Positions 27,177 through 31,527 of a stretch of 41,580 nt of DNA are shown here, one piece after another (the first letter of the stretch is position 1; every line of letters begins with the position of its first letter). Source of the DNA: an uncultured Methylobacillus sp. (lineage in GTDB: Bacteria > Pseudomonadota > Gammaproteobacteria > Burkholderiales > Methylophilaceae); NCBI GenBank assembly GCA_946478965.1, contig CAMLDQ010000010.1, positions 1 to 41,580 of the forward strand, given 5' to 3'. The position numbers were made by a program, and so were the translations under genes. The notes under the pieces are model-generated. The model did no database searches. It was given only the letters and a program-made list of their open reading frames with translations, and was not told the origin of the DNA.

Positions 27177-27351
27177 TGATAGTGCAACCCCCATCACCCC
27201 TAATCCGGCCTCATGCCAGCGGCCCGCGGATCGCCTGCAGGCAGCATGAAAAGGCCTTGATTGCAAATCCATTTTTCATTCATTGTTGAATTCGACACCG
27301 GGCTGCCGCATGATGATGCGTTTTAACAACAACATCTCTCGGAGGATCATT

Positions 27352-27855
27352 ATGGCAAGCACTGTCACGCTCAAGGGCAACCCCGTCGAAGTCGCCGGAA
27401 ATTTCCCCTCCCCCGGGCAAACCGCCCCCGATTTCACGCTCGTCAACCAGGATCTGCAGAATGTCGGCCTGGCCGAATTCGCCGGAAAACGCAAGATACT
27501 GAACATTTTCCCTAGCATCGACACGCCGACCTGCGCTACTTCGGTACGCAAATTCAACCAACTGGCCAGCGAATTGCCGAACACCGCGGTCCTCTGCATC
27601 TCGGTGGATTTGCCGTTTGCGCAGAAGCGTTTCTGCGGCGCGGAAGGGCTCTCCAATGTCACGACCCTGTCCACCATGCGCGGCCGTCGCTTCCTGGAGG
27701 ATTACGGCGTCGCCCTCGCCAGCAGCAAGCTGGAAGGCATCGCGGCGCGCTCGGTAGTGGTGCTCGACGAGAACAACAAGGTCCTGCACAGCGAACTGGT
27801 CAGCGAGATCGTCAACGAACCCAATTACGACGCCGCTCTGGCTGTATTGCGCTAG
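27352..27855 (+). CDS. tpx: Thiol peroxidase Tpx (atypical 2-Cys peroxiredoxin)
   Basis: Reduces hydrogen peroxide and organic hydroperoxides using thioredoxin. The protein has 167 residues. The peroxidatic cysteine is C61 in DTPTCATS and the resolving cysteine is C95 in QKRFCGAEG, the same numbers as in E. coli Tpx. I chose the ATG at 27352 because GGAGG lies 7 bases upstream (27341-27345). It is divergent from gyrA and upstream of another peroxidase gene, ahpC, in the same direction, 131 bases away. Confidence 0.95.
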
Positions 27856-27986: not shown

Positions 27987-28589
27987 ATGGCCGTCCTCGT
28001 CGGAAAACCTGCTCCCAATTTCACCGCGGCTGCCGTCCTCGGCTGCAACACCATTGAAGAAAGTTTCAATCTTGCCGACCACATCAAGGGCAAGTATGCG
28101 GTGATTTTTTTCTACCCGCTGGATTTCACCTTCGTCTGCCCGTCTGAACTGATTGCGTTCGACCATCGCCTGGAAGAATTCACCAAGCGCGGCGTGCAAG
28201 TGATCGGCGTGTCCATCGATTCCCATTTCACCCACCTGGCCTGGAAGAACACCCCGGTCAACGCCGGCGGCATCGGCAAGGTCGGCTACCCGCTCGTCGC
28301 CGACATCAAGCACGATATCGCCAAGGCCTATGACGTCGAAGCGGATGCCGGCGTTGCCTACCGCGGCTCCTTCCTTATCGACAAGCTGGGCATCGTTCGC
28401 CACCAAGTCGTCAACGATCTTCCGCTCGGCCGCAACATCGACGAAATGCTGCGCATGGTCGATGCCCTGCAATTCACCGAAGAACACGGCGAAGTCTGCC
28501 CGGCCGGCTGGAACAAGGGCAAGGCCGGCATGGATGCCAGCCCGGAAGGCGTTGCCAAATACCTGGCTGCACACGCTACCGAACTGTAA
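27987..28589 (+). CDS. ahpC: 2-Cys peroxiredoxin (AhpC/TSA family)
   Basis: Peroxidase of 200 residues that removes hydrogen peroxide, alkyl peroxides and perhaps peroxynitrite. The peroxidatic cysteine is C51 in LDFTFVCPSE and the resolving cysteine is C171 in EVCPAGWNKG. The loop GGIG (94-97) resembles the GGLG motif of oxidation-sensitive members, but the C-terminal YF motif is absent, so a robust type is likely. No ahpF gene is adjacent; thioredoxin or another reductase would have to supply electrons. It has a conspicuous inverted repeat in its leader and a strong terminator after the stop. Confidence 0.93.
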   Translation: MAVLVGKPAPNFTAAAVLGCNTIEESFNLADHIKGKYAVIFFYPLDFTFVCPSELIAFDHRLEEFTKRGVQVIGVSIDSHFTHLAWKNTPVNAGGIGKVGYPLVADIKHDIAKAYDVEADAGVAYRGSFLIDKLGIVRHQVVNDLPLGRNIDEMLRMVDALQFTEEHGEVCPAGWNKGKAGMDASPEGVAKYLAAHATEL

Positions 28590-28651: not shown

Positions 28652-29815
28652 CTAACCCAGACGCAAATCCGCCTTGAGATCGTCGATATGCTCAAGGCCA
28701 ACCGCAATGCGTACCAGCCCATCCCCGATCCCCGCCGCCGCACGCGCTTCCGGCGTTACCCGGCTATGCGTAGTGGTGGCCGGATGCGTGATGGTAGATT
28801 TTGCATCGCCGAGATTGGCGGTAATCGATAGCAGGCGGGTACTATCGATCAGCTTCCAGGCCGCCTCCTTGCCGCCCTTGATATCAAACGAGACGATCCC
28901 TCCGCCGCTACGCTGCTGACGCATTGCCAGTGCATGCTGCGGATGCGACGGCAAACCCGGGTAATAGACGCGCGCCACCTGCGGCTGCTGCTCCAGCCAT
29001 TGCGCCAGCGCCAGCGCGCTGCGGGAATGCGCCTCCATGCGCAGACTAAGCGTTTCCAGACCTTTCAGGAATACCCAGGCATTGAAAGCACTCATGCTCG
29101 GGCCGGCCGTGCGCAGAAAACCGTAGACGGGTTCGAGAACGTCCTTCTTGCCTAATACCGCACCGCCCAGGCAGCGCCCCTGACCGTCGATATACTTGGT
29201 CGCGGAATGCACCACGACGTCCGCTCCCAATTCGAGTGGCTTTTGCAGTGCGGGCGTGCAGAAACAGTTGTCCACGACCAGCCGTGCACCAGAAGCATGA
29301 GCCAGTTCGGCCAGCACGCCGATATCGCAGACTTCCGTGAGCGGATTGGACGGCGTTTCCACGAAAAACAGCTTGGTGTCGGGACGTACGGCCGCCTTCC
29401 ATTCCTCGATATCGGTGAGTGAAACGAATGTCGTTTCCAGGCCCCAGCGCTTGAGGATGTTGCCGAACAATTGCACGCTGGTGCCGAAGATGCTGCGCGA
29501 AGCCACGACATGATCGCCGGCAGAACAGAGCCCCATCACGCACGCAAGAATCGCGGACATGCCGCTGGAAGTCGCCACGCAGAACTCTGCGCCTTCCAGG
29601 GCGGCCAGCTTGTCCTGAAACATCGTGACCGTGGGATTGGTGAAACGCGAATAGATATTGCCCGGCTCCTGCCCGCCGAAACGGGCCGCCGCCTGCGCCG
29701 CGCTCTCGAAAACAAAGCTGGAGGTCAGGAAGATCGCCTCGGAATTCTCACCAAATTCGGTGTGCGCACTGCCTGCGCGCACCCCCAGGGTTTCCTGTTG
29801 CCACTGGTATTCCAT
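28652..29815 (-). CDS. metZ: O-succinylhomoserine sulfhydrylase
   Basis: PLP enzyme that joins O-succinylhomoserine and sulfide to give homocysteine, the precursor of methionine. The protein has 387 residues of the Cys/Met metabolism family. The PLP lysine is K207 in HSATKYIDGQG; YSRFTNPT (55-62) is also typical. The start GTG/ATG choice is settled at ATG 29815 (MEYQWQQETLGVRAG) because the longer frame reads through the terminator. Expression is probably controlled by the SAM-II riboswitch and attenuator upstream. It could be O-acetylhomoserine-specific, but the family look and purF neighbourhood favour MetZ. Confidence 0.92.
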   Translation of the reverse strand: MEYQWQQETLGVRAGSAHTEFGENSEAIFLTSSFVFESAAQAAARFGGQEPGNIYSRFTNPTVTMFQDKLAALEGAEFCVATSSGMSAILACVMGLCSAGDHVVASRSIFGTSVQLFGNILKRWGLETTFVSLTDIEEWKAAVRPDTKLFFVETPSNPLTEVCDIGVLAELAHASGARLVVDNCFCTPALQKPLELGADVVVHSATKYIDGQGRCLGGAVLGKKDVLEPVYGFLRTAGPSMSAFNAWVFLKGLETLSLRMEAHSRSALALAQWLEQQPQVARVYYPGLPSHPQHALAMRQQRSGGGIVSFDIKGGKEAAWKLIDSTRLLSITANLGDAKSTITHPATTTHSRVTPEARAAAGIGDGLVRIAVGLEHIDDLKADLRLG

Positions 29816-29846
29816 GTTATTGCCCTTCTTGCCCGTATCCGGGCAT

Positions 29847-29882
29847 AAAAAAACCCGCTTCAGCATTGGCTAAAACGGGCTT
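29847..29882 (-). terminator. Intrinsic terminator (attenuator) in the metZ leader
   Basis: On the minus strand AAGCCCGTTTTAGC (29882-29869) pairs with GCTGAAGCGGGTTT (29864-29851) around the loop CAAT, giving 14 pairs with three G-U. It is followed by seven T (29853-29847). It lies between the SAM-II aptamer and the metZ start, so it acts as an attenuator rather than an end-of-operon terminator. Confidence 0.85.
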
Positions 29883-29887
29883 TTCCG

Positions 29888-29943
29888 GCTCGCTTTAGCT
29901 GTATTTGTAATGCGCCCGCAAGCTGAAACTTCAAATCGGCGCA
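29888..29943 (-). ncRNA. SAM-II riboswitch aptamer controlling metZ
   Basis: Reading the minus strand, P1 is TGCGCC (29943-29938) with GGCGCA (29916-29911). The conserved loop bases GATTTG (29937-29932) and GCTTGC (29923-29918) follow. After an A/T-rich spacer comes AGCTAAAGCG (29900-29891), the family's conserved GCUAAA element. The pseudoknot can form: UUGC against GCUA (with the U-U pair of the ligand site), then GC against GC. This matches SAM-II (SAM_alpha) aptamers as I recall them, first described upstream of methionine genes in Alphaproteobacteria. The gene downstream, metZ, is the expected target. It was recognised by eye, not by covariance search. Confidence 0.8.
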
Positions 29944-29949
29944 GATCAA

Positions 29950-29978
29950 ACAGTAAGGCTTGCAGATCGCCTTGTCAA
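29950..29978 (-). promoter_or_regulatory. Promoter of the metZ leader
   Basis: On the minus strand a perfect -35 TTGACA (29978-29973), a 17-base spacer and a -10 TACTGT (29955-29950). The expected transcription start is about 29943, the first base of riboswitch P1. The -35 box is 8 bases after the purF stop, so metZ has its own promoter. Confidence 0.7.
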
Positions 29979-29985
29979 CTTCGGC

Positions 29986-31527
29986 TTAGGCGGCCTCCTC
30001 CTCCATGTTCTCCGCACCGACCAGATTGAGGTCCAGCTGGGTACTGGAATTGGCCGGTTTGAGCTTCTTCTCGCCATCGCCGCGTGCATTTTCGATGGCC
30101 GACAGGTACTCCTCGGTGATATCGCCGGTCACGTAGTTGCCGTCGAAGCAGGAGCAGTCCAGCTGCCGGATATCAGGATTGCTCAGTTGCACCGCATGCA
30201 CCAAGGCATCGAGATCCTGGTAGATCAAGGCATCCGCACCGATTTCCCGGCAGATTTCCGCGTCGCTGCGACCAGTTGCCAACAGCTCGTCACGCGACGG
30301 CATGTCGATGCCGTACACATTCGGGTAACGCACGGGCGGCGCCGCAGAAGCAAAAAATACCTTGTTCGCACCGGCTTCGCGTGCCATCTGGACGATACGC
30401 TGCGAAGTAGTGCCACGCACGATGGAGTCGTCCACCAGCAGCACGTTCTTGCCCTTGAATTCCATGCCGATCGGGTTCAGTTTCTGGCGCACCGATTTCT
30501 TGCGCAGCGCCTGCCCCGGCATGATGAAGGTTCGCCCTATGTAACGGTTCTTGATGAAGCCTTCACGGTAAGTCAGGTTGAGTGCATTGGCCAGCTGCAA
30601 TGCACTGGGACGACTGGTATCCGGAATGGGGATGACGACATCGATATCCAGATGCGACCATTCGCGATGAATCTTTTCCGCCAGGCTCTCGCCCATGTGC
30701 AAGCGCGTCTGGTAAACCGAGACGCCATCGATCACCGAGTCAGGGCGCGCGAGGTAGACATACTCGAAAATACAGGGATTGAGCACCGGATTTTCCGCGC
30801 ACTGGCGTGCATGGAAATTACCGTCCATGTCGATAAAAATTGCTTCGCCGGGCGCCACGTCGCGTACCAGTTGAAAACCGAGCACGTCCAGCGCCACACT
30901 TTCGGACGCAACGACGTACTCTACGCCTTTTTCGGTTTCCTGCTTGCCGATCACCAGCGGACGGATGCCGTTGGGATCGCGGAACGCCAGCATGCCGTAG
31001 TTGGCGATCATCGCCAGCACTGCATAAGCGCCCTTCACGCGCCTGTGCACCCCGGCCACGGCACCGAAGATCATGTCCACGTCGAGCGCGGTGCTGCGCG
31101 CCGTACTTTCGATTTCATGCGCCAGCACATTCAGCAGCACTTCGGAATCCGACGTGGTATTGATGTGGCGCAGATCCTGACGGAACATCTCGCGCTTGAG
31201 TTGCTCGGAATTGGTCAGGTTGCCGTTATGGCCGAGCACGATACCGAACGGGGAATTGACATAGAAGGGCTGCGCTTCGGCGGCGGAAGACGAGCCGGCG
31301 GTTGGATAGCGCACATGGGCGATGCCGACATTGCCGATCAGGTTGCGCATGTGACGCGTCTGGAAAACGTCCTGCACCAACCCGTTGTTCTTGTGCATGT
31401 AGAACGTTCCGCCGTCGCTGGTCACGATGCCGGCGGCATCCTGGCCGCGATGCTGCAGCACCAGCAGGCCATCATACAGCAACTGGTTGACGGGGTTCTT
31501 GCCAACGATACCGATAATTCCACACAT
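29986..31527 (-). CDS. purF: Amidophosphoribosyltransferase
   Basis: First committed step of purine synthesis: PRPP plus glutamine gives phosphoribosylamine. The protein has 513 residues. The N-terminal glutaminase nucleophile is C2 in MCGIIGIVG, exposed after Met removal. The PRPP-binding motif [14 protein letters not shown] lies near residue 360. The C-terminus ends [13 protein letters not shown]. It follows cvpA after 50 bases, the classic cvpA-purF pair. It is the last gene of the co-directional run before the metZ promoter. Confidence 0.97.

Follow-up and report, generated by a model that had tools for sequence, protein, structure and literature searches.

A predicted SAM-II riboswitch upstream of metZ in a Methylophilaceae methylotroph, and its probable identity with the metXZ element and Bp2_287

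In the window analyzed here, a stretch of 41,580 nucleotides from an uncultured Methylobacillus sp., the gap between purF and metZ on the minus strand carries a promoter, followed by a SAM-II aptamer, then an intrinsic terminator and finally the ribosome site of metZ (Table 1). The MetZ protein is 85-89% identical to the best 14 listed relatives, which belong to Methylobacillus, Methylovorus, Methylotenera and related bacteria. The list of open reading frames, which takes the longest frame, has metZ begin at 29866, a position in the loop of the terminator; the start is likely the ATG at 29815-29813, downstream of AAGAAGGG, and in automatic annotation the metZ start may thus fall 51 nt too early. 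Between the U tract and the ribosome site lies a second perfect hairpin, TGCCCG-GATA-CGGGCA (29830-29845). Genes for a thiol peroxidase and a peroxiredoxin (27283-27855 and 27987-28589, plus strand) are convergent to metZ. The interval 29888-29943 marked in the first-pass annotation covers the aptamer, while the promoter, the terminator and the ribosome site lie outside it, and both terminator and antiterminator had been missed.

Table 1. Positions of the features of the metZ leader and of its flanking genes in the window.
Feature	Position	Strand	Basis
purF, neighbor upstream of the aptamer (context)	29986-31527	-	TIGR01134, 541 bits
Promoter: -35 TTGACA (29978-29973), 17 nt, -10 TACTGT (29955-29950)	29950-29978	-	single exact match in the window
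SAM-II aptamer core	29889-29943	-	RF00521, 38.0 bits over 29952-29874; R2, 73.6 bits
P1 5' strand TGCGCC	29938-29943	-	sequence, RF00521 match, covariation
L1 GATTTGA; in solved SAM-II, it supplies the third strand to the triplex of the pseudoknot (PMC5352136)	29931-29937	-	GATTTG letters in 96 or 97 of 97 copies
P2 5' strand TTCAGCTTGC, A29924 omitted	29918-29927	-	sequence; pair counts in relatives
P1 3' strand GGCGCA	29911-29916	-	sequence, RF00521 match, covariation
P2 3' strand GCTAAAGCGAG	29889-29899	-	GCTAAA unchanged in all 97 copies; pair counts
Antiterminator hairpin, GCTAAAGCG (29899-29891) with CGTTTTAGC (29877-29869)	29869-29899	-	fold of -12.2 kcal/mol
Intrinsic terminator, CCCGTTTTAGC / GCTGAAGCGGG (29879-29869, 29864-29854), seven U (29853-29847)	29847-29879	-	hairpin of -19.8 kcal/mol and U tract
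Shine-Dalgarno AAGAAGGG of metZ	29823-29830	-	read from sequence
metZ, O-succinylhomoserine sulfhydrylase, 387 aa	28652-29815	-	NF006003, 717 bits (cut-off 522); TIGR01325, 613 bits (cut-off 510)

Read on the minus strand, positions 29943-29888 consist of TGCGCC GATTTGA AGTTT CAGCTTGC G GGCGCA TTACAAATACA GCTAAAGCGAGC. P1 is formed by six pairs, and a pseudoknot P2, drawn by hand after the solved relatives, fits with nine pairs including a single G-U. Thus, the elements on which the first-pass annotation had based its SAM-II aptamer on the minus strand of the purF-metZ gap, namely P1 of 6 pairs, GATTTG, GCTTGC, GCTAAA and a feasible pseudoknot, are all present. When the whole window was searched with the covariance models of 4227 Rfam families, RF00521 was the sole family at gathering level (29952-29874, minus strand, E 3.5e-5), and the SAM-II assignment proposed at first pass is borne out by a score of 38.0 bits against a gathering score of 36, a margin of only 2 bits. 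A second covariance model, R2, which was built from 38 relatives with the window excluded, gave 73.6 bits at 29943-29889 of the same strand, and the next best place in the window reached 10.4 bits.

Chance resemblance was ruled out by the E-value of the RF00521 match, by the score of the window-free model R2 and by covariation. Neither SAM-V nor any other SAM class matched up to E 10; SAM-V was absent among the nine Rfam matches obtained up to this value in 29600-30200. An origin from coding sequence or a repeat was likewise rejected, the window being without tandem repeat and without tRNA. The aptamer lies in the leader of a methionine gene, metZ, and holds the ligand-pocket letters GCTAAA, TTGC and GATTTG. 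In solved relatives, these stretches are described to hold the uracil that pairs with the adenine of SAM, the third strand formed by L1 and a triple next to the sulfonium (PMC6061858, PMC5352136). If the pocket residues of the solved relatives are mapped onto the window sequence, U29897 would stay unpaired for the SAM adenine. By its sequence, the window element is confirmed as an ordinary, well-supported member of SAM-II, and the class assignment is taken as real. As in SAM-II/SAM_alpha (RF00521; PMC1273637), it comprises P1, an H-type pseudoknot P2 and the pocket letters, with a promoter just before P1, a terminator after P2 and a methionine gene downstream. SAM-V, whose pocket is described as near-identical to that of SAM-II in solved structures (PMC6061858), differs from the window element in that it is translational and gave no match in the region at E <= 10.

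The promoter ends 6 nt before P1, and its -10 element has the consensus letter at only three of six positions. Among relatives, 61 of 63 leaders have TTGAC no more than 45 nt upstream of P1, and 45 of 63 have TTGACN-N16-18-TANNNT, which ends 5-7 nt before P1, compared to 0.10 expected from mononucleotide shuffles. A promoter just ahead of P1 had already been described for SAM-II in 2005 (PMC1273637). Generic promoter and terminator scans of the window listed neither this promoter nor this terminator.

Among 80 metZ loci from relatives, the pattern GATTTG-GCTTGC-GCTAAA, sought within 500 nt upstream of metZ, was present in 63 and absent by pattern in 17. Because GCTTGC and GCTAAA could be no more than 45 nt apart in the pattern, copies with a longer spacer were missed; at least two of the pattern-negative loci (L063, L064) have all three motifs, with the GCTTGC and GCTAAA blocks 54 nt apart. 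From 39 metZ-leader sequences including that of the window a covariance model, R1, was built, in which P1 is the sole helix. Of 131 loci with R1 hits, 35 (MATE, untyped and some others) were excluded before pair counting; the remaining 96 and the window provided 97 betaproteobacterial copies, 93 of them distinct rows. Across these 93 copies, 91.6% of the P1 and P2 cells are paired, the pseudoknot not being part of R1, and sliding the partner by 1-3 columns lowers this share to 26-60%. Double-sided changes number 57 compared to 25.6 in shuffles, with none of 500 shuffles as high, and on four of five measures the whole structure of P1 and P2 beats all 500; the number of further pair types shows no excess (18 versus 18.0). 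P1 is paired in 96.1% of cells with double-sided changes in three of six pairs, and P2 in 88.6% with double-sided changes in two of nine pairs; four of the nine P2 pairs are invariant and therefore uninformative on pairing. P2 pair 29-69 occurs in six forms (UA 40, AU 16, UG 6, GC 5, GU 3, CG 1), and weak positions are pair 32-67, unpaired in 19 of the 93 copies, and pair 28-70, unpaired in 45 and gapped in 6. Taken alone, the 39-row metZ alignment supports the structure weakly, as three pairs with double-sided change were matched by 115 of 500 shuffles and its covariation score was reached by 41 of 500; it says little because its pairs vary too little. No deviation from GCTAAA or TTGC occurs in any of the 97 copies, and GATTTG is preserved, letter by letter, in 96 or 97; these counts have to be read with the fact that the copies were chosen with a model already holding the GATTTG, GCTTGC and GCTAAA letters. 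Conservation of P1 and of the pseudoknot in relatives, the lack of which had been named in the earlier reading as refuting, was thus observed together with covariation in both.

SAM-II in a betaproteobacterium is already known: Bordetella bronchiseptica appears in a figure legend of 2005 (PMC1273637), a survey of 2007 tied SAM-II to terminators in beta-proteobacteria (PMC2258182), and a paper of 2009 lists the class in alpha, beta and gamma (PMC2704228). The doubt voiced at first pass as to whether it is common in this group proved wrong. R1 detected the element in 126 of 150 Methylophilaceae genomes (E <= 1e-5), in 145 of 200 genomes of the order Burkholderiales (E <= 0.01) and in 132 of 274 genomes of the class sample (E <= 0.001), where a few matches span only part of the model; these searches ran without control genomes, the R1 E-values are rough, and the scores in the family and order samples are not fully independent because the 39 sequences of R1 include the window and members of both. 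RF00521 scored above its cut-off in 2 of the 150 family genomes (37 at E <= 0.01) and in 36 of the 200 order genomes (115 at E <= 0.1), while 2 of 14 control genomes matched at E <= 0.1 and none above the cut-off. Thus, annotation based on RF00521 misses nearly all copies in Methylophilaceae.

Many relatives are unlike SAM_alpha in carrying an insert. Between L1 and P2, an insert of at least 16 nt is found in 47 of 64 metZ leaders, and most of these inserts are able to fold as a hairpin. The 39 distinct inserts fold slightly better than their shuffles, with a mean z of -1.44 and p <= 0.05 individually in 9, a test that is weak singly and was judged on the whole set. The inserts are closed by GAG..CTC in 37 of 39, which is no proof of pairing because the same CTC forms the outer P2 pairs. 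In the wider betaproteobacterial alignment, the L1-P2 insert occurs in only 3 of 97 rows. In some other Burkholderiales a hairpin lies between P1 and GCTAAA instead, as seen by eye at places matched by RF02424 (L255, L257, L258, L259, L260, L263, L265). The window copy has neither insert. That Rfam misses copies in Methylophilaceae is, at least in part, attributed to the inserted hairpin; since compact copies also fall below the RF00521 cut-off (L006 with 32.2 bits, L054 with 35.5, L078 with 34.1), it is not the whole reason.

By blastp, 132 R1 hits, which are selected loci and a subset of all hits, were typed as preceding metZ-like genes (54), metX (30), metH (15), metK (2; L109 and L124) or a threonine-dehydratase-like gene of the PALP type (1; L158), and 30 were untyped. 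Four of the metZ-like products (L174, L187, L190, L218) are only 34-35% identical to MetZ. Two further loci (L238, L239) are metN-like by eye.

Downstream of the aptamer, folding and sequence indicate two mutually exclusive pairings, as the 5' arm of the terminator can alternatively pair with the aptamer stretch GCUAAAGCG. When the window leader was folded at growing length, the antiterminator was the minimum-energy form at 74-86 nt from P1 and the terminator from 90 nt on. A hairpin with a U tract was found in all 64 metZ leaders (the window and 63 relatives) by a lenient finder, which accepts a T4 tract and a hairpin below -7 kcal/mol; from the 124 of 127 leaders found in a wider set no conclusion was drawn because of this leniency. 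TTTRGC, the complement of GCTAAA, is located on the side of the terminator 5' arm in 60 of the 64 metZ leaders compared to 5.4 expected, and the duplex formed with the 11-letter stretch starting at GCTAAA has a mean z of -4.34, with 62 of 64 leaders at p <= 0.05 against shuffles. In the terminator fold of the 60 leaders, all six TTTRGC letters are paired in 9, five in 23, four in 16, three in 11 and none in one. As the motif is fully paired in only 9 of 60, its conservation is poorly explained by the terminator alone and points to the alternative pairing. In leaders outside the metZ set, from other Burkholderiales, TTTRGC is much rarer (26 of 124 compared to 2.9 expected; 54 of 124 at p <= 0.05), suggesting that the antiterminator is lineage-bound and that elsewhere different letters or a different mechanism are in use.

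Taken together, we consider it highly probable that a SAM-II riboswitch controls the transcription of metZ in this Methylophilaceae methylotroph, with a predicted function as an OFF switch, and metZ would very probably be switched off when S-adenosylmethionine suffices. Transcription would begin just ahead of P1. At low SAM, GCUAAAGCG in the nascent RNA would pair with CGUUUUAGC to form the antiterminator, which would sequester the terminator 5' arm and allow the polymerase to continue into metZ. When SAM is plentiful, it would be bound in the P1/P2 pseudoknot with GCUAAAGCG held in P2; since binding would keep this stretch in P2, the terminator should win, and transcription would halt before metZ. 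Both SAM as the ligand and the direction of switching are predicted from the riboswitch class. The kinetics are equally a prediction: as the terminator, at about -16 to -20 kcal/mol, is more stable than the antiterminator at -12.2, read-through at low SAM would have to be kinetic. As far as can be compared by description, the SAM-II element of Sinorhizobium meliloti metZ resembles that of the window in its target and in a predicted SAM-induced terminator, and a riboswitch sRNA has been seen there (PMC9373788); unlike the host of the window, S. meliloti is an alphaproteobacterium.

It might be argued that the aptamer is genuine but that the hairpin behind it is the terminator of purF, or an unregulated one, and that control, if any, is translational. 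The hairpin indeed sits between purF and metZ, with purF directly upstream in 56 of 63 element-bearing loci, and some SAM-II riboswitches are translational, such as the metX copy with a solved crystal structure (PMC6061858). We regard this as improbable: six of the 63 loci have the element before metZ even though PurF ends over 500 nt upstream of that gene (the seventh, L055, is a contig end), and a terminator arm complementary to the aptamer strand, as present in 60 of 64 metZ leaders, argues for a hairpin that belongs to the switch. A translational switch was dropped as the main reading because metZ has its ribosome site beyond the terminator and not within the aptamer; moreover, where the alpha SAM-II consensus ends in AGGCC after GCUAAAG, the window has CGAGCC. 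A SAM-II fold which has changed its ligand, for example to S-adenosylhomocysteine, or has lost binding appears highly improbable. The hairpins inserted in relatives could alter the ligand pocket; against this, 96-97 of 97 copies retain the letters that face the ligand in the solved relatives, and the target is a methionine gene.

The remaining alternative, a small RNA on the plus strand as filed in Rfam under RF02424, is next to negligible in our view. RF02424 does match the plus strand of the window at 29848-29977 and also the opposite strand of related leaders, yet the window is not a Bp2_287 member by either strand or score, its 35.8 bits (E 2.3e-6) being far under the gathering score of 70. 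On the plus strand the hairpin has A's before it and no U's after it, and the G-U pairs of the minus strand (at pair 29-69, six UG and three GU) become A-C mismatches. The promoter, the covarying pseudoknot and the met gene all indicate the minus strand.

RF02424 is Bp2_287, named after the candidate Bp2_Cand287 of Khoo 2012, which is described there as neighboring purF, metZ and metX and was called a cis element of methionine metabolism (PMC3521395). It occupies the same intergenic places as SAM-II; the differences are that it is placed on the opposite strand and that Rfam lists it among sRNAs. In the order sample of 200 genomes, RF02424 gave 41 matches at E <= 0.001, spread over 39 genomes, with one genome above its cut-off; 39 of these matches overlap an R1 match on the other strand, none does so on the same strand, and two overlap no R1 match. 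At four places (L258, L259, L260, L265), the R1 match spans the P1 part only and the GCTAAA part is a separate weak match. When the visible part of the RF02424 consensus is reversed, it reads GCGTCGATTTGA..CAGCTTGCGGACGC..CAGCTAAAGC followed by a terminator and a U tract, and places opposite a SAM-II element with terminator can be seen, for example, in L013 (2334-2447) and L265 (1554-1756). From these sequences, the 'Burkholderia sRNA' RF02424 appears to be SAM-II and its terminator on the wrong strand.

A similar case can be made for the metXZ element. Leyn 2014, which reported SAM_alpha only in Rhizobiales and Rhodobacterales, presented beside it a metXZ element, termed 'novel', from 35 genomes of beta-proteobacteria (PMC4239095). 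In that description, the element has six conserved regions, with regions 1 and 4 paired, a pseudoknot and a terminator, and it precedes metXW in 30 cases and metZ in three Methylophilales, Nitrosospira and Thiobacillus (PMC4239095). By our own division, the R1 alignment can be split into six ordered blocks, TGCGCC, GATTTGA, CAGCTTGC, GGGCGC, AAAT and GCTAAAGCG. SAM-II hits share the metXZ gene context, with 54 metZ-like and 30 metX among the 132 typed, as well as pseudoknot and terminator. The published pairing of regions 1 and 4 fits P1. The two descriptions differ in the pseudoknot: in metXZ, region 2 pairs with 6 and region 3 is partnerless (PMC4239095), whereas in SAM-II block 3 (GCUUGC) pairs with 6 around the ligand, that is 3-6 and not 2-6. 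By comparison with the published description, rather than with its letters, the metXZ element is most likely SAM-II. A statement equating metXZ or RF02424 with SAM-II was not found in the literature searched, mostly without subscription papers.

Several unusual copies were also observed. Thirteen typed hits are SAM-II copies in front of a MATE exporter gene (L125, L126, L148, L156, L184, L185, L195, L196, L209, L211, L213, L214, L222; assigned by PF01554 for L126), and in 11 of the 13, in one weakly, a small open reading frame of unnamed kind is located between aptamer and MATE gene; three of these frames were checked against Pfam and gave no match. A second aptamer-like copy with the signature GATTTAA..CAACTTGC, at times with an extra hairpin before GCTAAA, follows the first terminator at MATE loci. 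This second copy was recovered by the strict pattern in 8 of 13, as a second R1 hit in L125, L213, L214 and L222, and by eye in L211. Tandem SAM-II is known from 44 cases (PMC9481103); a paper on SAM-II in a MATE context was not found in the literature searched. On one contig, L189 harbors two R1 copies 1 kb apart (151-216 and 1178-1242) that share the sequence TTTGCACTTCTTAAAAT... upstream of P1, and the upstream sequence of L140 is similar. No methionine gene was recognized in the stretches of L189 and L140 examined, and perhaps the aptamer is carried there on a repeat. One genome of the class sample (G591) has seven R1 matches, of which the five listed are on two contigs.

We therefore hold, with considerable confidence, that one riboswitch has received three names: both the metXZ element of 2014 and Bp2_287 of 2012, the latter on the wrong strand, would be SAM-II, which would serve as a main SAM sensor of betaproteobacterial metX, metZ and metH, at times of metK and probably of metN, with tandem copies before a MATE exporter. 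It would have gone unrecognized at least partly through hairpin inserts specific to lineages, between L1 and P2 in Methylophilaceae and between P1 and GCUAAA in several Burkholderiales, that lower the score under the Rfam cut-off. The names metXZ element and Bp2_287 should then probably be retired and, if this is true, the 'novel' element of 2014 has a known ligand. For the window alone, the riboswitch would explain how metZ is linked to the level of SAM. The wider interest lies in its relatives, a widely missed set of SAM-II riboswitches, many of them with a hairpin insert. With an updated model, methionine control would be annotated throughout the betaproteobacteria.
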